64,000 nt of DNA. It comes from Bolinopsis microptera. Lineage: Eukaryota; Ctenophora; Tentaculata; Lobata; Bolinopsidae. The stretch covers positions 22,098,270 to 22,162,269 of the forward strand of contig NC_087073.1 of the NCBI RefSeq assembly GCF_026151205.1, read 5' to 3'. The stretch's first letter is position 1. Every line of letters begins with the position of its first letter. This document shows, in pieces, positions 15,284-64,000 of this stretch. Below the pieces are notes generated by a model. It did no database searches, was not told where the DNA came from, and saw nothing but the letters and a program-made list of their open reading frames with translations. The translations under genes were made by a program, and so were the position numbers.

Positions 15284-18143
15284 GGGGGGGTGTCACGTCC
15301 GTCTATGTCCGCTTGTCTCATAGAATCCAAAAAGGACAGGACATAGGCGGACATAGGCGGACATAGACGGACATAGGCGGACATAGGCGGACATAGACGG
15401 ACATAGGCGGACATAGGCGGACATAGGCGGACATTAATGGACACCTAAATTGCTAAATAAAATGTTCAATTTTTGCTGTTATAGGGGGATCATGTTTTTT
15501 GTCCGTTCGGTACCCTATATTTTCAAAACGGACAAAAAATAGAGCGGACAAAAACGGACAAAAATGGACAAAAACGGACAAAAATGGAAATAACATTAAG
15601 ATGCTTCCTCCTCCTACTCTTCCTCCTCCCCCTGGGTCTTCCTGATCGTTCTCAGTCCTCTTCCTCCTCCCCTCCTCAGTCCTCCTCCTCCTCCTCGTCC
15701 TCAGTCCTCTCATCAGTCCTCAACAGTCCTCCTCCTCCCCAGTCCTCCTCCTCCTCCTGAGCTCCCTCCTGGGTCCTCCTCCTCCTCTTCATCCTCCTCC
15801 TCTTCCTCCTCAGTCCTCAGTCCTCAGTCCTCCTCCTCATCCTTCTCCTCAGTCCTCCATCCTCCTCCTCAGTCCTCCCCCAGTCCCCCTCCTCCTCCTC
15901 CTATTCAGTCCTCCTCCTCCTCCTCCTCCTCCTTCTCAGTCCTCCTCAGTCCTCCTCCTCCTCCTCCTCCTCCTCCTCTTCCCTCTCATTCATCCTCCTC
16001 AGCCATCCTCCTCAGTCCTCCTCAGTCCTCCTCAGTCCTCCTCCTCAGTCCTCCTCCTCCTGGGTCCTCCTCCTCCTCTTCATCCTCCTCCTGTTCCTCC
16101 TCGGTCCTCAGTCCTCCTCCTCCTGGGTCCTCCTCCTCATCCTTCTCATCAGTCCTCCTCCTCCCCAGTCCTCTCCCAGTCCCCTCCTTCTCCTCCTATT
16201 CAGTCCTCCTCCTCCTCCTCAGTTCTCCTCAGTCCTCCTTCTCATTTCTCCTAAGTCCTCCTCCTGAGTCCTCCTCCTGAGTCCTCCTCCTGAGTCCTCC
16301 TCCTCCCTCTCAGTCATCCTCCTCAGTCATCCTCCTCAGCCATCCTCCCCAGCCATCCTCCTCAGCCATCCTCCTCAGTACTCCTCAGTCCTCCTCCTTC
16401 TCAGTCATCGTCAGTCCTCCTCCTCAGTCCTCCTCAGTCCTCCTCCTCCTCCTGGGTCCTCCTCCTCCTCCTGGGTCCTCCTGGGTCTTCCTGATCCTCC
16501 CCAGTCCTCTTCCTTCTCCCCTCCTCAGTCCTCCTCCTACTCTTCCTCCTCGTCCTCAGTCCTCCTCATCAGTCCTCTACAGTTATCCTCCTCCCCAGTC
16601 CTCCTCCTCCTCCTGGGGCCTTTTCCTGGGTCCTCCTGGGTCCTCCTCCTCCTGGGTCCTCCTCCTCCTGGGTCCTCCTTCTCCTCCTCAGTCCTTCTCC
16701 TCCTCCTCCTCAGTCCTCTTCCTCCTCTTCCTCCTCCTCCTCCCTCTCAGTCATCCTCCTCATCCTTCTCCTCAGTCCTCCATCCTCCTCCTCAGTCCTC
16801 CCCCAGTCCCCCTCCTCCTCCTCCTATTCAGTCCTCCTCCTCCTCCTCCTCCTTCTCAGTCCTCCTCAGTCCTCCTCCTCCTCCTCCTCCTCTTCCCTCT
16901 CAGTCATCCTCCTCAGCCATCCTCCTCAGTCCTCCTCCTCAGTCCTCCTCCTCAGTCCTCCTCCTCCTGGGTCCTCCTCCTCCTCTTCATCCTCCTCCTG
17001 TTCCTCCTCGGTCCTCAGTCCTCCTCCTCCTGGGTCCTCCTCCTCATCCTTCTCATCAGTCCTCCTCCTCCCCAGTCCCCTCCTTCTCCTCCTATTCAGT
17101 CCTCCTCCTCCTCCTCCTCCTCAGTTCTCCTCAGTCCTCCTTCTCATTTCTCCTAAGTCCTCCTCCTGAGTCCTCCTCCTCCCTCTCAGTCATCCTCCTC
17201 AGTCATCCTCCTCAGCCATCCTCCCCAGCCATCCTCCTCAGCCATCCTCCTCAGTACTCCTCAGTCCTCCTCCTTCTCAGTCATCGTCAGTCCTCCTCCT
17301 CAGTCCTCCTCAGTCCTCCTCCTCCTCCTGGGTTCTCCTCCTCCTCCTCCTCCTGGGTCCTCCTGGGTCTTCCTGATCCTCCCCAGTCCTCTTCCTTCTC
17401 CCCTCCTCAGTCCTCCTCCTACTCTTCCTCCTCGTCCTCAGTCCTCCTCATCAGTCCTCAACAGTTCTCCTCCTCCCCAGTCCTCCTCCTCCTCCTGGGG
17501 CCTTCTCCTGGGTCCTCCTCCTCCTGGGTCCTACTCCTCCTGGGTCCTCCTTCTCCTCCTCAGTCCTTCTCCTCCTCCTCCTCAGTCCTCTTCCTCCTCT
17601 TCCTCCTCCTCCTCCCTCTCAGTCATCCTCCTCAGCCATCCTCCCCAGTCCTCCTTCTCAGTCCTCCTCAGTCCTCCTCCTGAGTCCTCCTCCTCCTCAG
17701 TCATCCTCCTCAGTTCTCCTCCTCCTCCTAGGTCCTCCTTCTGGGTCCTCCTCCTCCTCCTCCTCCTGGGTCTTCCTGATCCTTCTCCTCCCTCTCAGTC
17801 ATCCTCCTCAGTCATCCTCCTCAGTCATCCTCCTCAGCCATCCTCCTCAGCCATCCTTCTCAGCCATCCTCCTCAGTACTCTTCAGTACTCTTCAGTACT
17901 CTTCAGTCCTCAAAATGTTTGTCCGCTAATGTCCACCAATGTCCGCTAATGTCCACCAATGTCCATCCAAGTCCGCCAATGTCCGTCCGGGTCCGCCAAT
18001 GTCCGTCCGAGTCCGCCAATGTCCGTCCGAGTCCGCCAATGTCCGTCCGTGTCCGCCAATGTCCCAAAAAACACGTCCGTTGTCTCATAGAATCCAAAAA
18101 GGACAGGACATAGGCGGACATAGACGGACATGACACCCCCCCC
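15284..18143. mobile_element. Foldback-like element made of minisatellites, inserted in the satellite
   Basis: A 2860-bp insertion interrupts a satellite monomer. The left end reads GGGGGGGTGTCACGTCCGTC. The right end is its complement, GACGGACATGACACCCCCCCC. CATTTTGG is duplicated on both sides (15276-15283 and 18144-18151). Terminal regions consist of tandem units of GGACATAGGC/GTCCGCCAAT type (about 15296-15435 and 17918-18130). The motif TCATAGAATCCAAAAAGGAC occurs near both ends in the same orientation. The middle, 15600-17910, is almost pure pyrimidine on the plus strand. No coding sequence was found. Confidence 0.8.
15600..17912 (+). repeat. 2.3-kb CCT/CAGTCCT pyrimidine tract
   Basis: Units of TCC mixed with CAGTCC, TGGGTCC and CAGCCATCC continue for about 2.3 kb with extreme strand asymmetry. 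Larger blocks also recur: sequence near 15840-16490 is repeated near 16760-17380. Such tracts can form triplex DNA. Confidence 0.95.
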
Positions 18144-26826: not shown

Positions 26827-27855
26827 TCATTTTATTGGATTAAAATGCTTAAAATTTCCTTGGTATTCGGTGACCCACAATCGAATGTCTCTTGGTAAGT
26901 CTGTAGCGTCTACATCTTCTTTTTTAAGCTCGCTGGACCCTACTTTTTGAAATCCTATTCCCATACCTTTGGCAGCATTTTTTACTCTATGGTCCCTCAG
27001 TTCATGACTTCGAGCAGTTTCACTTTCGCCGCCATATAATGCAAAAGGAGCAAAAGCTTGCTTAGTCGTGACTCCTTTCTTGCACATTTTGGATCCCGTT
27101 CTGACCTGAACGTCAGATGACGATATCGGCAATTTGGTGTATTTACGAGAGGCAGAGCTGTGGAATGTGTCACTCGTACTTGGTCTACTTGTCCCATAAC
27201 TACTTCCAGTTCCGCCAGTGTTAGGTCTACTCCTACCAGTACTTGGTATGATATCTGAAGTCCGACTTGGGGGGCGACTGTAATCCTTGTGTCCACTTAA
27301 TCTACAACTGGAGGCTGATTTTGGTCTACAAATTGATGATGCTCTGGTATCTGATCTCGAGCCACTACCAGGTTTTCTAAGCCTCTTTCTATCGTCTTCA
27401 CAAGCACTTGCCGGAGTTGGACTCCTTTGGTTACTAGAACGCTTTAGACTGAGTGAGCTGTCCCTGCCATTATGGTTATCTGCTTCTCTTATGTCGAGAA
27501 CAACGAAATCAGATGATTGACTTTGCGATCGAGATGGTTTTCCACACCAAGCAGATTTAATCCTACTCGGAGGTTCTGGCCGTTTAACTCCAACCTTCCG
27601 ATCGGTTAACTGTTTGGATGAATTCTGATCCTGACAACAGCACTTGGGCAGATATTCAGATGATATGCTCTGAATGTCGTCACTTTCTCCGTCCTTACTA
27701 TGGTCCCAGTGAATAGGTGCATGTTTGGCCGCTTGGAGCATACGTGTTCTCCTGTCCTTACTCAATTGGAAATAATGCGATCGAGTTGCACTGTCCCAGA
27801 GCTGACGGTTATACTTGTTATTATACTCTGTAGAATAGTTGGACACAGGCTTCAT
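26827..27855 (-). CDS. CCSAP: CCSAP-like protein, paralog 2
   Basis: A single-exon frame of 342 aa from the ATG at 27855. The frame is open further upstream, and ATGs at 27888 or 28074 are possible. The start was placed here because the first paralog also begins just before its conserved box. It shares the layout of the gene at 23683-24879: STEYNNKYNRQLWD to APIHWD at 8-51, a Cys cluster CCC at 72-74, FAPFALYGG at 268-276, and a final WVTEYQGNF at 327-335. The centre is Ser/Arg-rich with repeated RPS/RSRP motifs. The KEVHSSALRAK block of paralog 1 is not evident. It probably arose by tandem duplication, followed by strong divergence. Confidence 0.72.
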   Translation of the reverse strand: MKPVSNYSTEYNNKYNRQLWDSATRSHYFQLSKDRRTRMLQAAKHAPIHWDHSKDGESDDIQSISSEYLPKCCCQDQNSSKQLTDRKVGVKRPEPPSRIKSAWCGKPSRSQSQSSDFVVLDIREADNHNGRDSSLSLKRSSNQRSPTPASACEDDRKRLRKPGSGSRSDTRASSICRPKSASSCRLSGHKDYSRPPSRTSDIIPSTGRSRPNTGGTGSSYGTSRPSTSDTFHSSASRKYTKLPISSSDVQVRTGSKMCKKGVTTKQAFAPFALYGGESETARSHELRDHRVKNAAKGMGIGFQKVGSSELKKEDVDATDLPRDIRLWVTEYQGNFKHFNPIK

Positions 27856-28611
27856 TATGTCAACTTTATCTAAAACATAGCTAGTCATTGTCGTGGTCAA
27901 AGATAAAATTAGAAAAACTGATACTCCCATGGAAGCCGACCTTGTTATCAGTGATGAAAGGAAACAGAGTTGCTCCTTCGTAAACTTCCACATTGAAATC
28001 GAAATAGGGTGGTCATAAAACAGATGGTTGAGCCGCGCGATGCACAAAGGATAGGAGCCGTACCAGTTATACATTCACCGGTGGGATCATCCAGCTGACA
28101 TACCAACGGCTAGGCATGGTCATTCTGAACGATGAGTCCTAATCAGTCATTACTTTTCTGCTCTCATTGGGTATCCCTGCACTGGGCTACCTATACTAGA
28201 CCGACTGGTAGAGCATATTTCCACTAAATCTCAGAAGGATGGTACGTGAGCGCGAAATTTATCTAAAATTTTGCTGCGCACCTCTTACTTGAGATGACGC
28301 TGTGTCTTATTTTGCTAGTACCTAAAGATGTTACGAACTAGGACATGTTCCAGGATTCGACGTCACGAATTATTGCTATATGATTTAAAACAAATGAAGT
28401 TACATTATTAATTGATCTGCCATTATAGCAATTGCATTATCAAGATACATCCATACTGATATCAAACCTAAATATTATTCACGAAAATTCGTTAAACTAT
28501 TTACAGCTGATATTTTAAAACAAAATAGACAAATTCAAATTAAGATTGAAAAAATATTAAAACATGTCAACATCACATCAATTAAGTTTTAGTTTAGATC
28601 ATGATCAGTTC

Positions 28612-28680
28612 AGAAAAACAAACATCAGGCGTGCTTCTGTCAGTGACTTTCGAGAGCAGCCGTCATCAAATCATTTTCCA
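28612..28680 (-). promoter_or_regulatory. Candidate SECIS element in the C18orf32 3' UTR
   Basis: Read on the minus strand, starting right after the TGA stop at 28683-28681. It has GAAAA (helix I), an internal loop, ATGA at 28666-28663, GGCTGCTCT, then CGAAA with the AA(A) at 28650-28648. Next come a mini-stem GTC-ACT-GAC, AGAAGCACGCC, TGA at 28627-28625, and TTTTC closing helix I. GGCTGCTCT pairs with AGAAGCACGCC with one bulged C and one bulged A. The 12-nt distance from ATGA to the AA is that expected of eukaryotic SECIS elements. The mini-stem would make it form 2. Not folded by program. Confidence 0.6.
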
Positions 28681-29000
28681 TCACTGAGTCTTGACTTTAT
28701 CCCCCTCCTGAAAAGATTAAAACATTTTATTAACTATCTTAACTACGGCCTGTGTTATTGGCACTAATATATTAATTGTAATACTTTGATTTTAAGGCAG
28801 TAAAATTACATGAAACTACTGAAAAATTCAAAGATTTTCACCTCCTCTACTGGAAAATCGTTAGTTTTCTCCGAACCGATAGCTTTGTCAGGGGCCGTCT
28901 CCTCCACGGCAGGCCTCCAGTAGCGATCAACTAACGGTTTGATAAACTTAGCGTAGATCCATAGGAATAAAGGGATAACAATACACGATATTCAAACCAT
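28681..29000 (-). CDS. C18orf32: UPF0729/C18orf32-like ER membrane protein with in-frame TGA at codon 3
   Basis: Two exons: 29000-28842 and 28707-28681. The junction is GT/AG, phase 0, giving 62 codons including the stop. The human protein (76 aa, ER and lipid droplets) begins MVCIPCIVIP. Here the frame reads M, V, TGA (28994-28992), I, S, C, IVIP, followed by the conserved LFLWIYAKFIKP. The TGA therefore falls exactly on the first Cys of the CxxC motif. Everything else is intact: hydrophobic N-terminal segment at 7-19, polar tail, and a C-terminal KVKTQ matching the KxKxx ER-retrieval pattern. No acceptor AG lies between the ATG and the TGA, so splicing cannot remove it. Possible readings are a Sec codon (favoured by the hairpin after the stop), a recent nonsense mutation, or a sequence error. 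This gene is too small for ordinary ORF calling. Confidence 0.8.
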
Positions 29001-29548
29001 CTTCCGTAATCGGTAGGTCTCTGCCCCTTCTCTAAGCGAGGGTTATTCTTGATTTCTTGGCTAAGTGGCAGCGACATCATTAATATTTAGTTAGAAACTT
29101 AACAGAATTTGGTAGAAAACATTAACAAGGAATTTATGAACAGATTTAGTAACAATGAAAATATCCGACAATGCATTGAGTAGAGACGCAGAGTTGTATT
29201 TCCAATATTGGGGATTCTCTTTAAAAAACTAGGTCGTTTCAATAAAACAAGGATGTAACATTTAAATAAAGAGGTAAAATATGTTCAAACAAAGTAATCA
29301 TTATTTGTACAATATGTAGGCTCGGTCATTTCGTATGATTATTAGTAATTGATTAAGAAATAATATCATAAGCACGAAAACATCTCTCATTTCATTTTCA
29401 TCACCATTTTTGCATTTCGTCATTTCAATACTGGGAGTTTTACTCGAATCTTTAACATCAAATTTGGACTTATGTCACAGCGGCCGGTCAGAAAAGCTCA
29501 AAGTTAACTTAGCACTGAATATTAAAATAAAGTAAAACTCTGAAACTC
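29001..29548. other. Spacer between C18orf32-like gene and SNRNP200 3' end
   Basis: It probably holds the 5' leader of the C18orf32-like gene (an upstream ATGATG at 29078 opens an overlapping short frame) and the 3' UTR of SNRNP200. No repeat or RNA was recognised. Confidence 0.5.
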
Positions 29549-32500
29549 TCAATCTCCCTCACTGCTGCTCTCTGAAGACTCGACTCCCTCGTTGACACCG
29601 AGCTTGAACCCGTATTCCTGATCACATCCCATATACGAGTCGCACATGAAGAACAGCGTGTAGTCATGTGATCCTGGTTCAGGTGCCATGAACTCCAGCT
29701 TCACACTTGCCTTCTGATATAACGTGATACGTTTAATTGAGGTCAAAGTGTTCGTTTTGGTGTCTCCAATTACCACCCACCAGCCCTCCTCTCGTTTTGT
29801 TGGAAAGAAAGGAGCGATCACGTGACCAACGACTTCGTCCTCTCTTTCTAGGTCTACTGTTACTGTGACCGGGCCACCGGACTTGATATTGTCCTTGTCT
29901 TGAATCTTGTACACTAACTCAATGTTAGGGTAGCGGTTACAGTACCGAGCTAGATCCTGATAGAAGATTATTTTCAGTTAAATCGAACCGGCTAGGTCAA
30001 ATAACTAAATAATAAAGCAAACAATCACCTTTATTGGGGAAATACAATACACATAAACGATTAGCTGATTAGAAACCCCAGATTCTAAGTTCTAACCTGC
30101 ATCTTGTTATCAGGTAGCTGAAGAAGTTCATTCCTCTCATCATCCTCCAGATCCATAATATCAAACACACTCTCTACTTCTTTAGTTTCACACCTGAAAC
30201 AGTTTGTAATCAACATGATATTTCATAATTCATCTGAAGTGAAAGTAACAAATATAGAAGGAATTCGGAGTAGGTATAACCGCCGTTTGAGTGATCGTGT
30301 AATTTCTAACCGTTTGATCATTTCGTCAGTGAAATGAGGGAGTTGTTTGAGGTAACTGTCCTTCTTCCACATGGCTTGAGTGCACATCTGTGAGAGCTCC
30401 ATGGCCGCCAGGGCTGGTCCCAACCAGCCGCTACTTGACAATACGTCTACACACGCCTAAAGACAAAGGAGGGTTTGACTTTTATCATGATAGGAAATGT
30501 TGAGATCAAATGCTACCTTAAATAACCACAAGGTAGAAAACTTGAGCTATCACTTGATCATCTATATATTTTTCCATTGGAGAATCCAGATCCAGTTACA
30601 AATAACTTGAGATGATAAAAGATGGCCAAATTAGTATTTCTTGAAGACCTTTTTCCTACATAATTACCTGGATGAGTCGGACAGTTCGTTTGAGGATATC
30701 ATCCTTATCACTCTGTAACTCAGTAGGCAGTATGATTCTAGATAAGTGAGACTGAAGGAGCAGGTTAGCTTTGCAGTGAGGGTCATTGAACTTGTGTCCC
30801 TCAGGAAGTTTCTGTGGTATTCTGTTGCTCAGTTGTTTTAAAATGTTCTCCTCGTGATGACGAACTGATAAGGAACTGTATTCTGCTGCCGCTGATATTA
30901 TCTCTATTATACCTGCAAACACCGAGATGTTGTTAGACTATTTGGGGATATCATAAATAACGAATTAAATAACAGATGCAGACGAATGATAAACATCATT
31001 ACATTCTGGCTTAATCGAAACGTCAAGATCATATTTTTGAGAATGACAGAAACCTTTCATTTTAGTTTTAGGAGTGAGAGAAAGAGAGAAGAGTTCGATG
31101 GTAGTGTAGTTGATGTAATAGTATGCAGCGATCATGCCCAGATTGAGTGGTGTAGTGTCCATGTCGTCCTCGATAGCCAGACACATAGACTGTTCCAGAT
31201 CATTGAGTGTGTTCTCCACTAGATCAGATAAATGATCCGAAAAGTGGCGATGTGAGGAGCCCTGGTAGAATAATTAGAAGATAATTAGTGAGTAGTATAG
31301 ACGCTGAGCTCAAACTAATACAAATAACAATACCTCTTATACAAACGCTCTTATCAAAATTTACTCAAATAAAAAAAATTAACCTGTAAGTTGTAGTAAT
31401 TAGGGTTTTGAGTAAGTCTCCTGTACAAGAAGGTCCAGGTAAGATAGTCCACAGCGTCCTGTTTGTTCTCCACCGTCTTGGTGACCACCTCCGCGTTGAA
31501 ATGATCATGTAACACGTGATCAAGATGTGACTCAACTGGTAGAGGTTCGTAAAGGAACTTCCTGAAGAACTCCTTTTTGGATCCCTGGCACATTACCACA
31601 CATACTCCGTTCTGGTCGTGAAGAGGTCTGTTAGCGCGGCCCACCATTTGTAACATGTCAGTTATAGGATAATCCACATAACGGTGCTCTTTGCCGTCGT
31701 AGTATTGGGTATCCATGACGACCACCAGGTGGGAGGAGATGGGACTACCCCAGGCAAGCTGTCTGGTGCTCACCATCACCTGAACTGCTCCGATATCAAA
31801 CAACTTGTCCACAATACTCCGCTCTGTTTCGGGCAGACCTTCGTGCGCGTACGCTACACCATGGGACAGAGTCTCGCACAGAGTCTTATCAGTAAGCTGG
31901 TCCAGGTATGGCTTCAAATCGTCTTCTGAACAGTGCAGGAACTTCTTGGGACTTCCTTCTGCAGCTGCAAAAGTAAGTACGTCTATAGCTGTGAGACGGG
32001 CTTGTTTTCGGGACGGTACGTAGACTATGACGGGTTTGGTGGGGGAATGTTTGCAGATGGCGTTGTAGACAGGTTTCATCATGCAGAGCAGGCGTGACTG
32101 CGCATGTGTGATATGGAACCCGTTAATGTGGAGCTCTAGTGGAACTGGCCGGACGTTGGGGTGGAAGTTGAAGATAGAGTTGGTGTGACAACCCAGCCAT
32201 TCTCCTATATCCTTAGCATTAGCTAGGGAGGATGACAATGCCACAATACGGATATTCTTCTCAATTTGAGCGCTCATATACCTCATCCTAGTGCAAACAA
32301 CTTCTAACACAGGACCAACATCACCTCCGATCAGATGAACATCGTCAACAATGAACAGGTCCACATTCTGAACATTCTTCCTCTGCTTCCAACGACGAGA
32401 CAGAATGTCCCACTTCTCAGCAGTACTTAGGATAATGTTCCCCTTGGCTAAAAGCTTTAGATCTACACTGGTCTCCCCAGTCAAGACTACCACCTTCTTG

Positions 32501-35500
32501 TCAAGCTGAGATCCGAACTTGTGGCTCCAGTCTGAGTACACTTGATCCACTATATACTGCAGAGGAGCGACATACACGCACCGTGGCTCCTCCTTATTGG
32601 AGCACAGACGCAGGATTGCGATCTCTGCACATAACGTCTTGCCTGATCCAACGGGGGCGCCAATAAACGCATTATCATCTGTGTTGTAGAGGGAGTTAAA
32701 TACTTGTGTCTGAATGGGGTTGAGGTAAGAGAAACTATCTTTGTAAAGGTTCTCAAACTCTGGATTTCTGAAAACTCCCACAGGGAGAGGTTGAAGATCT
32801 AGCAGTTCTGTGGGGGGAAGGTTCTTCTCTGGTAGGATGAGATGTCTGAAGGAAACAGGGAGTTGTGTTTCTGCGTGGAGCCACTTATCTGACACGATTC
32901 TGATGAAATAATGAGGGGGCAGGGGTTCAAAAACTGGCACAAAGAACTCCACGATATGGTCCTCTCCGACGTACTTAGATTTGAGCAGGAAATACTCGCT
33001 GTGAAGGATGATCTCGTTATCACAGTCTTCTACCATAATCCAGAACGCTTCAGACATACCATGGACCTTCTCCTCCCACTGGAAGTCAGGGGTGATAGTT
33101 AGCTCGACTCGGAGAGTGGACCTGGTAATTGGTTGAATGTGAGTTGATAACTCCATCTTTGGAAACAAGTGGACTAGCTTGTGGATGTTGTTGCCAAGTT
33201 TTGGCATCCTGATCAATTCGCCTAGCTCGGCTGGTGTCAGATCGTAAAATCTGGAAAAAGTGAAATACTTCTTCTCAATCTTCTTCACCACTTCGTCTGG
33301 CAGTTTCTTGAACTGTCTGAGAGGAGTCATACTCAGCCACATTCTCTTCTCTACCATCTTACAGAGGTTGAGAGCGTGTTCAGCGAGCTGCGCCCACCCT
33401 CTGTGCAGCACTATCTCGTAGATAGCTCTCATGAGACGGTTAGCAGAGCTTGTTATGTAGACCATGTCCGTGGCCAGGGAGAAGCCCTCTAGTTTCAATT
33501 GAGAGATGTGGGATTGTAGCAACACGTTCACTTTACCACTTGGCTCCTCGATACTTTCTTTGATGGGAATAGGAACTCTTTCAATGAGTTTAGCTAGCTC
33601 TAACTTCTCCTCCTCACGCACTTGAATGTGTCTAAACTCGCTGCTCAGGGAGAAAACTCTGAACAGCTCGATTTGACTGAGAGTGGATTTGAGTAGACTG
33701 TTGTAAGTAGCAATGCTGTCGTTGGTTATATAATAATGACTGGCTATTCTGCCGAGATCAGTAACCATGAAGTTACCAGATCTCCTGTCGTACTTGACAA
33801 GGTTGTTTTTGTCCAGCAGAGCGGCAGCCGTGTGAATCAGATCAGCGCGACGCTGTTCCAATGTAGGGTCGTCTTTGAGAACATCCTCAGTCATACCGTA
33901 CAGGGTGGGGTTCCTTAACATACGAATGTAGAGGTAGGTGTATCCTAACCAGTGTACCGCTTCCTTGGCGTTCCTGATCGTACCCAACACGATCTCAGCG
34001 TTCAGATTGTCAGCTAGTTTCTTGATAAACTGACTCTCAATAGGAAGCTGCTGGTTGAGAAGTGAGAGGTAGTACTGCAGCTCATTATGACTTGTGATCA
34101 ATGTTCCCTGACCTCTGGAGTCGTGCTGAGGTCGCCCAGCTCGTCCGAACATCTGCAGGATATCTAGAGCTCCTAACTCTACCCATTTACCCTTCTCAGG
34201 ACTGTAGATCTGGGTTCCTTTGATGATGACAGTGTGAGCAGGCAGATTCACTCCCCAAGCTAGGGTCGAGGTGGACACTAGAACCTGAATATGACGGTCA
34301 TCAAACAGATCCTCTACTAAAGTACGATCTATCCTGGTGAGGCCGGCGTGATGAATAGCAAATCCGTAGGGCAGGATATCTTTCAGATCAGGACTCTTAC
34401 ATCCCTCCGCTTCAGTTCTCAATACCTCAGTGCTGGCAGAACCCTCTCTTAGGAACATTCCGATCGTGTCATTCTCCAGCGCCATGTCTCTCAATGCTTT
34501 GGCTGTTTTGGCGGTCTCTTTTCGAGAATGGACGAACACGAGAACCTGATGTTTCCCTGCGTTTTCCATCACCTTTTCATATAACGTATCATTCACCAGC
34601 TTCCATTTCTTAACAGCCTTCTTCTCTGTCACTCCAATGAAGGTTTGATCAAGAGGAACAGGTCGGAAGCTATTATCAAAGTAATGGAGCCCAGTCTCGA
34701 GGTTCACTCTCAAGAAAGCGGCCACATCCTCATAATTGGGCAATGTAGCAGATAGACCGACTAGTCTAACCAACTCCTGAGTACTCTCTATCTGCCTGAT
34801 GGTACGAGCCACAATGGACTCCAACACCGGACCTCTGTCGTCGTGAAGTAGATGGATCTCGTCCATGATGATGAGAGACACCAGCTGAGTGTAGGTCCTT
34901 TCTCCGGCTTTCCTTGTGACAATGTCCCATTTCTCCGGGGTGCAGACTATAACCTGCAATGAGAGGCAGTTGTCAGAGTTGAGTTTACGGGAAAGTGTGA
35001 AAAGTATGCCCAGTTTAGCAGCTTAATAATGCTCGAGCCAAAGAAAAAAGATTACAAATATTTTAGAGTAAGCCTAAAATGGCGACCAAACAGTCAATTT
35101 GTTCGAAATCAAGTTAAGGATTGAGATTCATTTACCCTCATTTAGAAAGAAGACGGTATAAAGATGAGCAAGCCAAAAGAAGTAGTTTTACTGGGCGGTA
35201 AACTGGGCACACTTACTTTCGAATAGAAAACTCAACAGTTTAGTTGAGAAGATTTGACTTTTCAGCATTCAACTAATGTTCATTTCACCTGAAATCAGAT
35301 AAAACGTAAAATTTAAAAATGGATCCATTTTCCTGCTCCATATGAAAGACACATAGTGTTTGTGCTCAAACCTTTAAAGAGTAAAATCTACTAGACAACA
35401 TAATATGTTAACAGTTTGTTCAAGCCTTCATTACTGAAAGAGGAATGTAGTCCTGAATCAGTCCAAGGAGGTTAATTTGTTGTAGGCTGACTTTGATATG

Positions 35501-42963: not shown

Positions 42964-45902
42964 ATAATAATAATAATTTAAACTTATAGATTATAGTGGC
43001 ACAACAACTTAAAATGCACAGGTGTGCCACGAAAACAAGTCAGGATACAAGAAAACCTGAAAAGCAATCCACATTTAGGTTCCAAACCATAGAAAATTGT
43101 AAAGACTTGATACACTAAATTACAAGGTTAAGGGTATGCACTTAACAGTAGAAACGTTGAAAAAATAGTAAATTAATTAATATCAAAAGCCCGTTTAAAA
43201 AGAAACGTTTTCAGATACACTTTAAAAGATTCCAGTGACATGCAATTCTTGATTTCAAGAGGCAGCTCATTCCATAATTTAGGGCCAACTTTCTGAAACG
43301 ATCTTTCTCCATACTGTGAATATACTCTAGGTTCAGTCAAATAGATAAGATGATTATAATTGGCATATTTAAACATATCAATTAAATAATCTGGTCCCAT
43401 ACCATTAAGACATTTATAGACAAGAAGCAATAACTTATATTGAATTCTGTAACTAATAGGCAGCCAATGAAGGTCTTTCAGAGTGTCTCCTAGATGATCA
43501 TATTTATATAGTCCTACTATAGCTTTAGCAGCTGCATTCTGAACGAGTTGGAGTTGGTGGATGAGGTTGTCACTAATTCCATAATAAAGAGCATTGCAGT
43601 AGTCCAATTTGCAGACAATGATGCTGTTAATCATAAGCTTGAGCTGAGCTTTACTAAAGAGATATTTTCTCCTTATTACATTCCTAAGGAGTCTGAAACA
43701 ATGCTTTTTGAGGGACATGATTCGAGGCTCAAAAGTAAGATGATGGTCAATTTGAACACCAAGGTTCTTTGTTGTGCTGACAAATCTGATACAGGTATCA
43801 TTTGATAGCTTAACTCCCCCTATACTGACCTGGTTTAGAACTTGAGGTGAGGCGATGATAAGTATTTGTGTTTTTCCAGGATTAAGTTGAAGGCAATATT
43901 CAACCATCCAGCGCTGTATGGTCCTAGCGCAATTCACAATTTGGATGCCCAGAACATTTACCTGATCACAAGGTTTGAAAGTTTTATATACCTGGTGGTC
44001 ATCTGCATGTCCTTGCACATTGAATCCAGATTTCTCGATGGTCCTATACAGAGATCTGATGTATATGTTGAATAGCACCGGTCCTAACACAGAACCTTGA
44101 GGTACACCAAATTCTAGAATGATCGTATCACTAGTAGAAGAGCCTATTCTGGTTCTTTGAGTGCGGCCTACCAGGAAACTCTTGAACCATTTAAGAGCAG
44201 TACCTCCGATATGGATCTCTTCAGAAAGAATTTTGAGTAATTTTCTGTGTTCCACTGTGTCAAAGGCTGCAGATAAATCGAGCATCATGAGAACAGTGGA
44301 GGATTTGCTATCACATGCCAGCAGTAGGTCATTTGTTACTTTTAACAAGATGGTCTCAGTAGAATGGAACTTCTTATAGGCAGATTGCTGTGGAACATTG
44401 AGATCATTTTTAGCCAGATGTTCATTTAACCTTTTCAGCACAACTCTTTCGATGAGTTTACCCAGAAAAGAGAGGTTAGATATAGGTCGATAGCTCTTGA
44501 AGTCATTTGGATCAAGTTTGTGGTCCTTGATGGTAGGAATAATGTCAGCAGTCTTCAAACCGTCGAATGTGCCCTTAGCTAGAGACTGGTTGACCAGTTT
44601 GCACAAGACAGGAATGAAACTTGTGATATTGTCTTTGAGGACAGTTGTTGGAAGAAAATCAGATGGTGCACACTTGATTCCACTTTCTTTGATTATTTCA
44701 GACAGCTCATCCTCTGTGCATGGTTCAAATTCATATAACCGACCTTCACAGTTAGAATTGTTCTGTTGATTCATAATGTGTTTATCAACATCAAAATCTT
44801 CTATGCTGGGGAAATCTTTCCTAATGTTCTTGATCTTTTCATTGAAATAGTGATTAAAATCACTGCAAAGTTTTGAAACATCTTCTGATTCTGGGAGAGG
44901 AGTATTCTGATGTCTGTCAAGCTCACGATTGACAATGCTATATATAGCTTTAACATCATGTTGATTTTTGTCAAGTAAACCTTTATAATATTGCTGTTTT
45001 TTAAGATTAGCCATGTTTGTTGTTTCATCTCGGATCTCTTCAAAGAGTATCCTGTTCTCCTCACTTTCATGCTTAGTTCTCTCGGCTTTCCTTCTAAGTT
45101 TCCTTTGATCTTTGTACTCAGAATCAAACCAGGGAGCATGGGGAACAAAGCTTATAGTCTTTTGGACCAAAGGTGCATGTTCATCGAGGACACTACTAAA
45201 AATTGTTCACAAGATTCAACAAAGCAGTCTGCCAATTCATAGTCAGAGGAACACATCAGTAAATCAATTGCCAACTGATCACAATCCACGGTTTTAAGCT
45301 GTCTAGTGTTGATTGTTTTAGGAGCTTTGAGGTTAGTTTGAAACTTCTTGGTGGAAAATATGATGGGGAAGTGATCACTCAGGGTACAGTTTTTCAGGAT
45401 TTCAATTGTAGACATTTCAATCAAGTTACTCTGGTCAAAGAGCAGGTCAATAGTTCCCCCACTCATGTGGGTCGGATTTTCAATAAGTTGCTTGAAACCA
45501 TAAGATGAGGTGGTCTGCAGCAGTTCAGTTGAGTTTACAGTAATTGACTCTGTGTGAATATTGAAATCTCCTCCAATTATTAAGTCACTTTTCAGACTTG
45601 CAGAACCCAATAAGTCATCGAGTTCCTCAAAGAACTTCTTTGAGACAGGGCCAGTTCGATAGATGCATAGGACAAGGATCTTCATGTCAGGAGTGCACTT
45701 TATAGATCCAGCGATGAATTCAAAGGTTGTCAGGTTCGGAACTTTCAAATTAACAACAGAGAAATGTAATGCCATGTTGTAAATCAGAGCGGTGCCACCA
45801 CCTCTGTTGTTTGCTCTGAAATCATGAACAATACTGTAGCCATATGATTTTATAACTGCTGTTGTAGTATTGGCTTGGTCAGATAACCATGTTTCAGTTT
45901 TG
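42964..45902 (-). mobile_element. 5'-truncated L2/CR1-like LINE with broken ORF2
   Basis: The minus-strand ORF2 has the C-terminal half of an AP endonuclease domain (ETWLSD, IIGGDFNIH, SDHFPI; 45900-45200), then reverse transcriptase (45170-43173). The RT motifs are LSAAFDTVEH and GVPQGSVLGPVLFNIYI, with the catalytic motif reading HADD instead of the usual Y/FADD. The C-terminal LHWLPISYRIQYKLLLLVYK and RSFQKVGPKLWNELP motifs fit the L2/CR1 group. A frameshift in a T run near 45205 separates the endonuclease and RT frames. The 5' end is cut at the TETWL motif. The 3' end carries an (ATT)n tail. ORF1 is absent. The element is not autonomous. Confidence 0.9.
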
Positions 45903-46103
45903 ATTGAAATAAATTTTCGTGCACATACAGAATGAATGGTTAATAATTTAATATATATGTAGACCAAGGTCTGTGCACGGGATGCTTCCTGGAAGAATCC
46001 AGTTCTTTTAGCGGGGCACCCTACCTAAAGCCAAATTGAGATATAATAATCATATTCCTAAGAAATAATCAGAAATCGAATACCAATCAAATAATATGAT
46101 ATA
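45903..46103 (+). repeat. Long direct repeat flanking LINE 1 (right copy)
   Basis: Matches 42764-42963 over its whole length, with a few substitutions such as CCAAGG for CCAAGC. It abuts the direct repeat of the second LINE. Confidence 0.85.
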
Positions 46104-46300
46104 TATGAGTAGTAACCATATTTACTATGCAAAATGCCCCAACCACATAGTGTAAATTTATATAGAATTCAAATTCCATATCATCATTAAACCTCAATAC
46201 CTAGTCAATATAATAGCCCAAGCAAAATTAAATAACTTCTTATGTACCTTACTGTCATACTACAAATTAATTAAACATTTGAAATCTGTTGACCAGAGAA
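46104..46300 (+). repeat. Long direct repeat flanking LINE 2 (left copy)
   Basis: From GAGTAGTAACCATATTTACT to TTGACCAGAGA. The same 195-bp segment, with more differences than the LINE 1 pair, lies at about 49311-49499. Confidence 0.8.
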
Positions 46301-49300
46301 TAAATTTCTAAGCCTAATGCAAGTGAAATAATTTAGATGCAATAATGAATGCCTAATGTGAGTATCATTTGTCAATGTCCTTGTAAAAAAGTCTGTACAA
46401 GAGATATGAGTAACTAATATAGAAGAAAAAACAGGAAGTTGTCGTCTGTTGTAAAATAAATAAAATATCTAGAATATAAATTAGAATATAAAATAACATT
46501 CAGTCAATGTGTCGTCAATAAACTGTACAATTATCAAATGTTAAAACTGGGTGATACAGTCACCAAAAATAAATACTAAGTATGATAAGTTAATAAATTA
46601 AATGTGGTCTATAAAACTACCACTAAGTATAATAGGTCAATAAATTAAAAGTGGTTTATAAAACTACCACTGTGGGAACCCCTTCTCCAGTTAAAACATG
46701 TCAGTCATGTGCAAAATCAATCAGAATGGTAAGGTGGTAAAAAAGGGAATATCTTTTCGATACATCAATTATATAATATGCCTCAGATTTAAAAGAATTA
46801 GAAGTTACTTAGTTATCGTCGACTATGATTGCAGTGTAAAATTTGTCATATGAATTGTCGACGGTATAATTAGGGTCTGTTGTTATAGATGATAGTAGCT
46901 GTTTCTTATACGAATCACTAAAGCTTTTAACATCGGGCAGATTTCGTAGATCTGTTGGAACATTATTCCAACATTTTGCCCCCAAGTATTGAAAGTTTTT
47001 ATGTGATGTTGATCTATTGACATAAAGGTTGCAGCTTTCGCCGCTCCTACTACCTCCTGATATGTAACTAAATTTGTTCATAAAGTTTGTAGGACAATTG
47101 TCATGGATGATTCTAAACATATAATTTGACAGATGGAGTTGCCGTCTAAGATGGAGTGGTAACCATTTCATGTCTCTATAAACATTAAGGCTGCTCTCTG
47201 TTTTTGGAACGTTGAGAGCTATTTTGGCTACCTTTTTGTACAGAGTGTCAAGTTCAGCAAGTTTTGTCTTGCCAGCTCTACAATAGATCGTGTCTAAATA
47301 ATCGAATTGTGGCAACATGAGTGCATTGGCAAACATTTTCCTATATTTAATGGGTAGCAGTGCTTTACTTCTATACATGGCACCAATTCTCTTCATGACC
47401 TTCCTAATAATATAATCTACATGGCTTTTGAAGTTTAATTTACTATCTAGAATGAGGCCAAGATATTTTGTCTCTTTGCACTCCTTGATTGTGAAAGTTA
47501 CCTCATTACAATCAATGGTTATTTCATCATGTTGGTCAACAGAATCAAACAATAGGAATTCAGTCTTATTTTCATTGAGTGATAATTTATTAACACTGAG
47601 CCATTTAAAGATTGTCATAAGTTCTATTTTCATGTTTATAAATGTGCTTCTGCAGGTTTGATCAAAGAATAGTGCACCATCATCTGCAAATAGAAAGGGC
47701 TTAGATAGGTTACAGGCATAAATGATGTCATTTATGAAGATACTAAATAATATAGGCCCAATGATGCTTCCTTGTGGTACACCACTCAGAACTTCTAAAA
47801 ATGAGCTTAGATTGCCATTGATCCTAGTGCATTGATATCTACAAGATAAGAAGTTCTTAAACCAGGTTAAAGCAATGCCACCAATTCCATAATATGCCAA
47901 TTTTTGAAGCAATATTTCATGATTCACTGTGTCAAAGGCCTTCTTAAGATCAAGAAAGATGATTCCTGGTTTATAAGACTTAGATTTACTCATATATATT
48001 TCGTCCATCAGATCGTACATCAGATAAGTTGTGGAGTGATTTTTCCGAAAGCCATATTGATGCCGGATGAAAAGAAAAGTTACAATAGCAACGTCTACAT
48101 CATGGTCTTGAAGTAAGCACATAATGTCGTCACACTTATTATTAAGACTTCTAGCATTCCAGATCATATATCGAAGTTGATGCAATTTCTTTGGTTTGGA
48201 GGAAACTAGTTTTTTGAATAATAAGATAGGGAGGCTTTAAGTTTCTCTTGCTGAACCCGGTAAGAAGGACACTCAGTAGAAAATGCAGCATGTTTACATA
48301 AATCATCAGGTGAGCCAGACTTTTTGCAGTTGATACAACAGTATGTGGGCATTAGATCATTTTTCTCCTCTGAATTGTTGTCCTGATTATCACATTGTTG
48401 AGTTTCATGTCCAGGGGCAGCGCAGAAACCACAATACACTTCGTTTTTACAAGTCTTAGAATAGTGACTTAAGCCTTGACACTTGTTACATCTCTTTATG
48501 TAAAGTTGGTCATACACTTGGCAAGACAGTAAACCGAAGAACAACCTGTTATTATTATCTCGTATAGCAATTCTAATATTATCACTCGACCTTATGATGG
48601 CTTGTTTGATATTTTGGTTTGCACGGAGAGGTTTCACAGACAGAACATCAAACAGTGAAGAGTCTGCTTCGAGGCAGTGAGAAATGTAAGGATTTTGCTT
48701 CAGGATGGTGTTCCTTATCTCTTCTTTGTGATCTCTATTAAAATCCTTAGGTAGACCAACAACTGAGATAGTGGGATATCTTTGCTTTGGTTCTTTCAGT
48801 TGATTAGCAGCTATACCTGATAATATCAGCTCTGTCTTCAGATTATCTCGTGAAGCTTGGGTTGGTAATATGAGTACTTGATCACCATTACTATAAACAT
48901 ATTGCTTATGAACCTGGATTCCATTATCAACCACTGTTTTTTCTAGATCTTTACATGGAACATTAGCACCTTTTGCAACAACCAGCAAGGATTTTGTTCT
49001 TATTTCATCGAGCCACACGTTCTCACCCTGATCAGTAGCTGGTTTCAAGGTACACTGTGCTTTGGCTATCGAGATGAGATTATCAACAGGGGAATGGTTA
49101 ATAGATTTCCCAGCAATTACATTCTCCAATAATTTCTTAATCTCTGTGACATCACTAGCTAAGTGAGTTACTCGGTTGTCAAGTACCTGAACATGATCAT
49201 TAGTTGTGCTAGTCTGCTTCACTTGATGATGTGTAAAGCAAGGATCACACATAGTCATAAAGAGAAAGTTTCCCATATGTTGTTCTTTACTTTTGTTAGA

Positions 49301-49310
49301 ACTGTTATAT
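46301..49310 (-). mobile_element. Jockey/CR1-like LINE with ORF1 and internally deleted ORF2
   Basis: ORF1 (49280-48206, minus) has three zinc knuckles: CNKCQGLSHYSKTC, CGFCAAPGHETQQC, and a third CINCKK..H..C. ORF2 (48185-46809, minus) opens with the endonuclease start MIWNARSLNNKCDDI. It then jumps in frame to reverse transcriptase (QYGFRKNHST, LDLKKAFDTVNHEIL, GVPQGSIIGPILF, FADD, SVNKLSLNENKTEFL). Most of the endonuclease and the N-terminal RT part are missing at about 48078. The first 30 codons of the ORF1 frame belong to the flanking repeat, so the element is 5' truncated. Confidence 0.88.
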
Positions 49311-49499
49311 ATAGGAGTAGTAACCATATTTACTATGCAAAATGCCCCAACCTCATAGTGTAAATTTATATAAAATTCAAATTCCATACCACCACTAAAC
49401 CCCAACAGTCAACACAACAGCCCAAGCAAAATTAAATAACTTCTTATATACTGTCATACTACAAATTAATTAAACATTTGAAATCTGTTAACCAGAGAA
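49311..49499 (+). repeat. Long direct repeat flanking LINE 2 (right copy)
   Basis: The partner of 46104-46300, with small deletions in the middle. The open frame that crosses it into ORF1 is fortuitous. Confidence 0.8.
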
Positions 49500-57701: not shown

Positions 57702-60700
57702 ATGGGTGGTAAGAAGAAGAAAAAGGAAAGGAAAGGAGATAAGAACACTATAGTAACATTTGCCGACCAGTATGATGACGATGAGCTGCTGAGACCCTTT
57801 AAGAGTGGGGTTCCACCTTTAGATCAACTACCCAAGAAGAGTAACCTCAAAGATAAACATCAAAGCTCAGGTTTTCTAAAGACCATCCCAGTATTTTAAG
57901 CTTTCCAATGAAAGTGAAACGTTTCTCAAGTAATATACAGATTTTAATTATTTCTTTGAGCGTACTAATTCGTGAGTCAATGTGAAAATGTTTCCTATCC
58001 ACAATTCTCGGTTATTGTGTAGCATATTGAAAGATAAAGCATTCTAAACTTATCCAATAACAAAAGAAGCTACAGACTTCAACAGAAACAAAACGTTTAT
58101 GAATACGCGTAAATGAAAATATGCGTTGAAATACTGAATGTATGCATTCTTCAGGGCGGACTGTAATATAGTATTCGTCCGAACTTTATTTTTAGATTTT
58201 TAATTTTACTCCCTCCCAACCGAATGTTAATTCCACAAGTTGCAAGAGGGTCTGTGGCTTTATACCAAAGCTTAGACGTAGCATCCTGGGTAGTGGGTGT
58301 CCTCCACGAACAGTTTATGGTGTATTGTTGTATGACTTAAGTACACATTTAAGTACACCTCTTCGTTTGTCATCCACGAACTGAGTCTGAAGTACAAATT
58401 TGTACTAAAGTTGCATGATTTAAGTTCACCCTTCAATATTTAAGTTCATATCTTGAGCCACTTGAGCCACTTTACAGGAGGTCCCCTGATATTTTGGGAA
58501 CTAGGGTAGTCTGTGGTCTGTAGTCTGTGGTCTGTGGTCTGTGGTCTGTGGTCTGTGGTCTGTGGTCTGTGGTCTGTGGTCTGTGGTCTGTGGTCTGTGG
58601 TCTGTGGTCTGTGGTCTGTAGTCTGTAGTCTGTAGTCTGTGGTCTGTGGTCTGTAGTCTGTAGTCTGTAGTCTGTAGTCTGTGGTCTGTAGTCTGTGGTC
58701 TGTAGTCTGTAGTCTGTAGTCTGTAGTCTGTAGTCTGTAGTCTGTAGTCTGTGGTCTGTAGTATGTAGTCTGTAGTCTGTGGTCTGTAGCTTAATATTCT
58801 TGAACTATTTTATAGGAGGTCCGCTGAGGTACGTGGATCACACTGCTGACGATAGGAGAGCTCCAGTAGCTAAGCAACAGCAGGTCAGAGCAGAGAGTCC
58901 TATTGATGGAGCGAGGATGCCTTATCTTACCAATACTGAACACAACGAGCACCAAATCAGGGTAATTATTGGCGGGTAATTACAAATTAATTACCTTATC
59001 GGTCATGATTATCACGAACATTACTTTCACGCTGAAGACCTTAGCGTGAATAATTAAGTCCGTGAAAATAATGTCTGTGGCATTAAGGTCCGTGAATAAT
59101 AAAGTGCGGTAATTATTTCCATTAATTTTATAGTGTGTTTGTCCCTACATATAATAATAATATGTTTTAATATTAATTTCAACACTACTATATAACAAAT
59201 AATTTGAGGAGGTAATTTATGAACAAGTAAAATTTGACCTTTACATTGGACTACCTCATGAAGTCCCCTCACTCTCAGGTTCTGATTTTTAAGCAAACTT
59301 GAAATTTCCAAATATGGCGTTTTTCTCTTCCAATCGATAGCTTTAAATCCGAATCATTCTAATCCCAGTGTCGACTGCAATTATTCAAAATTAGCAGTTT
59401 TTTGTATCCCATATTCTATTTCGGTCACTTAATACAAACCACACTTGCTATCTAACATAAAAAAAAACTTTACTTAGAAGCCGGTTGTAGCAGCTCATAT
59501 ATGTAGCAATATAGTGATTGTTAGGGCGGTAGTGCACGGTGTGTTGTGATTGTTGGATGTCAGTGATAAGCCTGAGGAGCAGCAAACCGAGCTGATAGGG
59601 GCTGCCAGGACCCTGACCCTTCATACTTGTCAATATTGTTATAATTACAACATTTGGGGCCAGAGAATCTAGAAGGAGGGTCAAGAGTGAGGAGGGTCGT
59701 TTGGTTACAGTCTGTCTTTGATCAAGAATCTTAGCAGACTCTAAGGCTGTGGCATGATGATAAATATTTACGATTAAAAATGTAGGGCTTCAGATCCTTA
59801 AATAAGAAATGATTGCTTTGGTGCATAATATCTATTAAAATTCTTGATAATAGCACTGTAAATCACAACACTGGCTACTATCCAACCATTCCCTATGGTA
59901 ACTATGGTAACTATGGTAACTATGGTAACTATGGTAACTATGGTAACTATGGTAACTATGGTAACTATGGTAACTATGGTAACTATGGTAACTATGGTAA
60001 CTATGGTAACTATGGTAACTATGGTAACTATGGTAACTATGGTAACTATGGTAACTATGGTAACTATGGTAACTATGGTAACTATGGTAACTATGGTAAC
60101 TATGATAACTATGGTAACTATGGTAACTATGGTAACTATGGTAACTATGGTAACTATGGTAACTATGGTAACTATGGTAACTATGGTAACTATGGTAACT
60201 ATGGTAACTATGGTAACTATGATAACTATGGTAACTATGGTAACTATGGTAACTATGGTAACTATGGTAACTATGGTAACTATGGTAACTATGGTTACTA
60301 TGGTAACTATGGTAACTATGGTTACTATGGTAACTATGGTAACTATGGTAACTATGGTAACTATGGTGACTATGGTAACACCTGTATTCTCAGATAGGAC
60401 AGACAATCCCACCGGTAATAGTCTACGAGAACTGTGCCCCTCCAATACCTGTAAATGTAAGGGACCTGTTCGTGAACGCTAGACTTGGCATTTTGTTCGG
60501 ACTTCCTGGAGCTTTTACTCCCGTCTGCTCAACGGTTAGTTTTAATTCTTATCTCTATCAGATTTAAATAGTTAGTCTATAATTAGCCAAACTTCAATAT
60601 TTAGCATATCATTGGTTGGAGCAGCAAAATTCATAAGAAAACACATTTCAACTGTTTAAACTAAACCAACTAAAACCTAAACCTCCAGAACCACCTGCCT

Positions 60701-62797: not shown

Positions 62798-63360
62798 AGA
62801 TCTACACGACTACACCAGTGAGTTACTATAGTAGTAGTAAACTAGTGAACTAAACTATCTGTATCCAAATGAAATGGAGGGACTAACATTGGCACTTGGT
62901 CACATATGATTATTCGTATGAACATTGAACGGTGGGATCTGTAAATATTGTTGAAGAAGTTGGTGCGACTGTTGATGTTGAAAATTTAATCGTTATATTT
63001 TAAAACGTGTTATCACTGTCTCCAATAAACGGATTTTAACATTGCACCGCTACTTTGAAACAATGAAAAGGGAGTATAGACGGAGATATCTGAGTTGAGG
63101 AAAGCTTGTTTCTTTATCCCTATGCAGGAGAAAAATAAAAAAGGACTTGGTGACCGAGAGAGTTTAGAGGGATTAGACTTTGAGAGGAGAGGGTGGCCGA
63201 GGGGTAGCAAATGTAGGTTTTATATGTGACCTGACTTTAACTGGCCACCACTTTTCTTTGGGGCTTTTTAATTTTATGGATAGTCCCAAAGTTTTTATGA
63301 AAAGCTCCAAAGTTAAAAAAAATTCAAGTTGGTAAAAAGGAGAGGTAATAGTGGTATTGA
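62798..63360. other. Downstream region of the peroxiredoxin gene
   Basis: Presumed 3' UTR and spacer. No gene or repeat recognised. Confidence 0.4.
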
Positions 63361-63364
63361 GCCG

Positions 63365-63932
63365 CTATCACGACACAACTGGTTGCTATCACGACACATC
63401 TGGTTGCTATCACGACACATCTGGTTGCTATCACGACACATCTGGTTGCTATCACGACACATCTGGTTGCTATTACGACACAACTGGTTGCTATCACAAC
63501 ACATCTGGTTGCTATCACGACACAACTGGTTGCTATCACAACACAACTGGTTGCTATCACGACACAACTGGTTGTTATTACGACACAGCTGGTTGCTATC
63601 ACGACACATCTGGTTGCTATTACGACACAACTGGTTGCTATCACAACACATCTGGTTGCTATCACGACACATCTGGTTGCTATCACGACACATCTGGTTG
63701 CTATCACGACACATCTGGTTGCTATCACAACACATCTGGTTGCTATCACGACACAACTGGTTGCTATCACAACACATCTGGTTGCTATCACGACACAACT
63801 GGTTGCTATTACGACACAGCTGGTTGCTATTACGACACAGCTGGTTGCTATCACGACACATCTGGTTGCTATTACGACACATCTGGTTGCTATTACGACA
63901 CAGCTGGTTGCTATCACGACACAACTGGTTAA
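63365..63932 (+). repeat. 21-bp minisatellite CTGGTTGCTATCACGACACA(T/A)
   Basis: About 27 units. It is open in four frames because the unit is a multiple of three without stops. Variants (TATTACGAC, ATCACAAC, CACAGC/CACATC/CACAAC) are intermixed. The 11-nt core CTGGTTGCTAT is the same as in the 21-bp array of PRPF3 intron 3. Confidence 0.97.
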
Positions 63933-64000
63933 TATAACATATCACGACACTGTTTCTTGGGTGACGCTTTCCTAACCTCCGATCATATTAAAATGAAGGG

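Follow-up and report, generated by a model that had tools for sequence, protein, structure and literature searches.

The window analyzed here, i.e. the whole 64-kb stretch of Bolinopsis microptera DNA, carries on its minus strand, at positions 28681-29000, a two-exon homolog of the C18orf32 gene, which is intact except for a TGA at its third codon (Table 1). This TGA is the sole in-frame stop ahead of the terminal stop codon, which is a TGA as well. The predicted product, encoded by 61 codons, reads MV(TGA)ISCIVIPLFLWIYAKFIKPLVDRYWRPAVEETAPDKAIGSEKTNDFPVEE/EGDKVKTQ (the slash marks the exon junction), and it contains no later Met that could serve as a restart site. From the GT...AG borders we infer that the two exons are joined by splicing, which would generate a C-terminus, KVKTQ, that fits the KxKxx pattern; a C-terminus of the KxKxx/KKxx type is presumably the ER signal of the C18orf32 family. 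The open frame, the splice sites and this C-terminus bear out the sequence-only reading, which had described an intact two-exon minus-strand gene with the codon-3 TGA as its only defect.

Table 1. Predicted features of the C18orf32 homolog (positions in the 64-kb window).
Feature	Position	Strand	Basis
Exon 1 (codons 1-53), opening with the ATG at 29000-28998	28842..29000	-	Translation and Pfam
In-frame TGA, putatively read as selenocysteine (U3 of U-I-S-C), at the first Cys of the family CxxC	28992..28994	-	Sequence and Pfam profile
Intron of 134 nt (GTGAAA...TTTTCAG), phase 0	28708..28841	-	Sequence; predicted splice
Exon 2, EGDKVKTQ and stop TGA (28683-28681), with the KxKxx C-terminus	28681..28707	-	Sequence
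Predicted SECIS element in the 3'UTR	28614..28675	-	Rfam RF00031, descriptor, fold and alignment with GPX SECIS

On its strand, the C18orf32 homolog is preceded at a distance of about 550 bp by SNRNP200 (frames 29549-29977 and 31354-35022, with Pfam matches to Sec63 and SNRNP200_wHTH), and a frame located further downstream (26830-27855) gave no Pfam match. Elsewhere in the window, partial reverse-transcriptase-like frames were recognized between genes by reading the frames (43173-49408, minus strand), and positions 15600-18113, 59800-60480 and 63313-63987 are occupied by long tracts of tandem repeats, in which many frames are open. Matches to microRNA families at 59898-60376 look like chance matches and fall under their gathering scores.

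With an X at position 3, the product scored 47.3 bits (cut-off 27) against the Pfam profile PF14975 (DUF4512), which we take to be the C18orf32/UPF0729 family. The conservation of the cysteines was judged from the PF14975 scores of 10 variants. A Cys at position 3 raised the score to 52.6 bits, i.e. about 5 bits above that obtained with Ser (47.7), Ala (47.8), Trp (46.9), Arg (46.9) or X, and the replacement of Cys6 by Ser or Ala had a similar 5-bit cost (from 52.6 to 47.3 and 47.5 bits, respectively). Both Cys positions (3 and 6) are strongly expected by the family profile and, judging from these scores, the codon-3 TGA aligns with a Cys conserved in the PF14975 family, exactly at the first Cys of CxxC, where the sequence-only reading had placed it. 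A Pro at position 5 would lift the score to 56.5 bits; the profile prefers C-x-P-C, and the human protein presumably starts with M-V-C-I-P-C.

The N-terminus of the Bolinopsis protein, M-V-U-I-S-C, is followed by a hydrophobic stretch (mean hydropathy of 2.23 for residues 2-20). The predicted structure (exon 1 only, Cys in place of U, one sequence; mean pLDDT 70.2, pTM 0.36) consists of a single helix spanning residues 4-35, and in this moderate-confidence model U3 stands just ahead of the helix and C6 within its first turn. A PDB search with the protein returned nothing meaningful, its one match (E 0.73) being an unrelated membrane subunit, and no relatives were found in the viral_contigs and genome_contigs scans, which include no other animal genomes.

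Past the terminal stop, the SECIS_1 model (RF00031) matched with 26.6 bits and an E of 0.013 (1301 bases, 28000-29300, searched against 4227 families), and this match is the only one in the window up to E 5. As its genome-wide E is 0.635 and its score is under the curated (gathering) Rfam score of 35 bits, this match counts solely by its location. Four control SECIS matches from the same genome scored 30.2 and 23.4 bits (GPX), 29.7 bits (SelenoO) and 29.0 bits (SelenoH), a range that includes the value of the C18orf32 hairpin. The hairpin displays an AUGA core (28666-28663), the facing UGAU (28627-28624), an apical AAA and a GUC/GAC mini-stem as in form 2 SECIS. Its core, ATGACGG...TGATG, has the same letters as both GPX SECIS, and so is its AUGA-UGA spacing, 39 nt, identical to that of both GPX, as compared with 42 nt for SelenoO and 43 nt for SelenoH; the apical AA occurs 12 nt past the AUGA. 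The AUGA core starts 14 nt past the stop, as compared with 23 nt in SelenoH, which has an equally compact 3'UTR, and it is 191 nt away from the codon-3 UGA in the predicted spliced mRNA.

In a descriptor-plus-fold analysis of the 600 nt that form the 3' flank, the observed energy was reached by 5 of 2000 dinucleotide shuffles, and only one other place on either strand of the window, with no SECIS_1 match, was as good. When folded freely, the 108 nt of the 3' stretch show no exceptional stability (z -1.13), an equally good fold being obtained with 26 of 200 shuffles. Based on these sequence features, we regard the hairpin as a SECIS, in line with the earlier claim that a hairpin past the stop favors the Sec reading: its score is typical for this genome, though below 35 bits.

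The genome search with SECIS_1, in which 150 of 5435 candidates were scored, gave at least 43 matches, a list from which the first GPX SECIS (30.2 bits) is absent. Twenty-one of these 43 matches were examined: three belong to SelenoO, SelenoH and GPX, one to C18orf32 and 17 to the 5' parts of non-LTR retrotransposons (loci L005-L019, L022 and L025, L019 being only weakly similar, with 32% over 90 residues and E 6.7e-5), i.e. every examined match that is not in a retrotransposon is in a selenoprotein gene or in C18orf32. Among the other 22 matches, one (C17:88362) belongs by its DNA to that repeat family and 14 share the score of L025, 27.1. The non-LTR retrotransposon L024:3310-6363 (G000:C12) has an open frame with endonuclease and reverse transcriptase domains (Pfam), and the hairpin at the 5' end of this frame (about L024:3389-3450) reaches 42.7 bits against RF00031, above the curated cut-off. 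The retrotransposon hairpins follow the pattern AUGA...AAA...CUGAU with an apical mini-stem, and a 122-bp probe covering that of L024 matched 18 places, one of them partially.

In an alignment of six such hairpins (L012, L015, L016 and L022, which match the L024 probe, and L019 and L025, which are related by protein only), 92.2% of the 77 cells pair and 8 of the 13 pairs show changes on both sides; none of 500 shuffles reached either value, and sliding the partners lowered both. The structure of the retrotransposon hairpin, which shows compensatory changes between diverged families, looks to be under selection, though at the frame start rather than in a 3'UTR; our guess is that a protein of the SBP2 or L7Ae type binds it as a kink-turn, or that it has a regulatory function at the 5' end. 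Among the papers listed (the best 8 of 15), none deals by its title with SECIS and retrotransposons.

These hairpins at the 5' end of retrotransposon frames, together with the unexceptional free folding of the C18orf32 hairpin, could be invoked in favor of a UGA readthrough other than Sec insertion (e.g. by a near-cognate tRNA), the SECIS-like hairpin having another role. We regard this explanation as extremely improbable: the TGA falls at a conserved Cys, the SECIS core is complete with its apical AA, and the genome possesses both the Sec machinery and other selenoprotein genes. In addition, an origin of the C18orf32 SECIS from a mobile element was considered, since most of the SECIS_1 matches examined are in retrotransposons, and rejected: the 3' flank (28301-28720) did not resemble any of the retrotransposon loci with which it was compared, its best match being a 22-nt chance match (E 0.47) in a locus without the retrotransposon hairpin.

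Several components of the Sec machinery, the presence of which the sequence-only reading had proposed to verify, were found in the genome. A tRNA-Sec with the anticodon TCA scored 70.7 bits, over the cut-off, and the 19 other matches to this family, out of 20, were under the cut-off (41.2-44.6 bits), the one that was read being a tRNA-Ser with the anticodon GCT. SepSecS was represented by six matched stretches in one place, EEFSEC by a domain scoring 114.6 bits, and selenophosphate synthetase by a match of 221.9 bits (locus L028; G000:C7, near 14429844). One of the SepSecS stretches (G000:C2:20900251-20900427) reports a TGA inside, which may be a genuine in-frame codon or may belong to intron sequence covered by the match. 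The profile PF08433, which is common to PSTK and KTI12, matched two loci in the genome, which were not told apart. The upstream exon of the selenophosphate synthetase gene reads ...KMKG-U-GCKV, UGC being located in the active site; this exon was identified by eye and has no Pfam match. Since its locus gave no SECIS_1 match up to E 3, SECIS_1 is not a complete detector in the genome of Bolinopsis microptera; the SECIS of selenophosphate synthetase may be further away or divergent.

Other selenoprotein genes with an in-frame TGA were also recognized. Two tandem GPX genes (locus L023; G000:C10:14057600-14063100) each possess an in-frame TGA (VASF-U-GLCLE) and their own SECIS_1 match; one GPX fragment scored 74.4 bits against the Pfam GSHPx profile (cut-off 27) and the Sec-bearing fragment 24.8 bits, under the cut-off. 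A SelenoO fragment scored 24.4 bits against SelO (cut-off 22.8), with a weak match to SelO structures (E 0.0011); the protein ends with VT-U-SS, an end that was named by eye and has neither a Pfam nor an NCBIfam match, and its terminal stop is TAG. SelenoH, with its CKS-U motif, scored 38.3 bits against the CxxU SelT/W/H model TIGR02174 (cut-off 34.2) and has no Pfam match; its stop is TAA. Two glutamate receptors of the genome were also compared with the PDB: the best solved relative of L027 is ML032222a, a Mnemiopsis protein, in keeping with a ctenophore, and L026 is nearest to the kainate receptors of vertebrates, which is uninformative in this respect.

A second intact copy of the gene, which had been named as a point to verify, was not found: the search of 232 genome contigs with the C18orf32 protein gave a single match, i.e. 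its own locus with one TGA inside, though masked or missing stretches could conceal another. This result bears on two explanations in which the TGA would not be a Sec codon. The TGA might stem from an error in the assembly or the reads, or represent a rare allele, the real gene coding for Cys, and it is one base away from TGC or TGT. Such an error would require, besides a substitution at this very codon, an unrelated SECIS match at this place (5/2000 shuffles; Rfam E 0.013), and it sits beside a SNRNP200 frame that runs for 1222 codons without a stop; together with the single match, these observations make an error very improbable. Alternatively, the gene could be a fresh pseudogene with a nonsense mutation at codon 3, the rest being still undecayed and the hairpin occurring by chance, as might be suggested by the single nonsense codon, the lack of a Met for restart and the absence of any other copy among those contigs. 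Against this view, which we consider very improbable, the frame, the splice sites and the C-terminal signal look intact; of the 61 codons the stop falls on that of a conserved Cys; the SECIS that follows it shares its core letters with other SECIS of this genome; and losing the sole copy of a broadly conserved gene would presumably be costly.

Because its TGA occurs at a conserved Cys and is followed by a SECIS signal, the C18orf32 homolog is very probably a selenoprotein, and we regard it as highly probable that it is a functional one, which depends on its SECIS for reading the TGA as Sec. The proposal of a Sec-containing C18orf32, first made from the letters of the gene, finds support in the profile that expects Cys, the SECIS_1 match, the Sec machinery, the other selenoprotein genes with in-frame TGA and the occurrence of a single copy. 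Several points can be raised against it, namely the low SECIS_1 score with its genome-wide E, the ordinary free folding, the SECIS-like hairpins of retrotransposons, the incomplete detection by SECIS_1, the unusual stretch between U and C, where the profile prefers Pro at position 5, the very early position of Sec, and the use of UGA as the terminal stop, as opposed to TAG in SelenoO and TAA in SelenoH.

The mechanism that we propose is as follows. First, the ribosome would start at the ATG at 29000 and meet the UGA at codon 3. Second, the downstream SECIS would recruit the complex of SBP2, EEFSEC and Sec-tRNA, so that Sec would be inserted at codon 3 and translation would continue to the terminal UGA. 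Third, this terminal UGA should still act as a stop, because the 14 nt that separate it from the SECIS core are less than the minimum UGA-SECIS spacing, which is about 50-110 nt in mammalian work, closer recoding being a failure; by the same rule, the 191 nt between the Sec UGA and the SECIS would be enough. One mRNA could in this way use UGA with both meanings, the terminal UGA being within the distance where recoding fails. Fourth, the 61-residue product would possess a single hydrophobic helix, with the U-x-x-C pair at its start, on the membrane face, and would end with the retrieval signal KxKxx. Fifth, as UxxC and CxxU motifs form a reversible selenenylsulfide in other selenoproteins, and as the Cys or Sec residues of redox proteins have a lower pKa when they stand at the start of a helix, the U-x-x-C pair may form such a reversible bond and, at the ER membrane, operate as a redox switch between selenenylsulfide and selenol. 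The Sec insertion, the membrane location and the redox role are all inferred at this stage from the gene and its predicted product.

Similarly to the members of the C18orf32/UPF0729/DUF4512 family, the Bolinopsis protein matches the family profile and has an N-terminal hydrophobic helix, a CxxC-type start and a KxKxx-type C-terminus, whereas in its gene a TGA replaces the codon of the first Cys and the 3'UTR contains a putative SECIS; we know of no Sec-containing member of this family. SelenoK and SelenoS, which are small single-pass ER selenoproteins with Sec near the C-terminus, resemble it, when compared by description, as tiny ER-membrane proteins with one helix and one Sec near an end, but in the present case the Sec would be near the N-terminus, at codon 3, i.e. 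to our knowledge earlier than in any known selenoprotein. The SelenoW/T/H family (TIGR02174) has a thioredoxin-like fold and the C-x-x-U order, and is SECIS-dependent. It shares with the C18orf32 homolog the two-residue distance between Sec and Cys and the proposed SECIS dependence, whereas here the order is U-x-x-C and, in the moderate-confidence model, the pair is found where a lone helix begins.

The human C18orf32 has been named as a protein of lipid droplets that is controlled by ERAD (PMC9213792), and it has been placed among the genes of GPI-anchored protein biosynthesis that are mutated in neurodevelopmental disease (PMC10940682); the RPL17-C18orf32 read-through gene is treated in PMC10986529, the available part of which has nothing on the chemistry of the protein. 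Among the papers listed from the open-licence literature, which is no proof of absence, none was found on C18orf32/UPF0729 as a selenoprotein or on a ctenophore selenoproteome, and none was found on DUF4512 in that literature; nor is the C18orf32 family named in the accessible parts of the selenoproteome papers PMC3473315, PMC5330540 and PMC7539508. A survey of six marine invertebrates counted 178 selenoprotein genes in 21 families, one of them named as new to eukaryotes (PMC3473315), and GPX has been reported in Mnemiopsis.

Altogether, C18orf32 is very probably a new selenoprotein family working by a known mechanism. We also think it likely that this family is a new metazoan one, the Sec form of which was kept in ctenophores, that its Sec is encoded earlier (codon 3) than in any other selenoprotein known to us, and that UGA is used twice with opposite meanings. 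New families of animal selenoproteins are rare. Should the Sec form be ancestral, vertebrates and insects would have replaced it later by the Cys at this site, and C18orf32 would have, in its CxxC, a redox center at the ER membrane. A Sec form suggests a catalytic residue, and the N-terminal CxxC encoded by C18orf32, which in humans is a disease gene, would accordingly have a redox function. The present case would open the way to the ctenophore selenoproteome, and it may serve to test how close to the start of an mRNA the insertion of Sec is possible.
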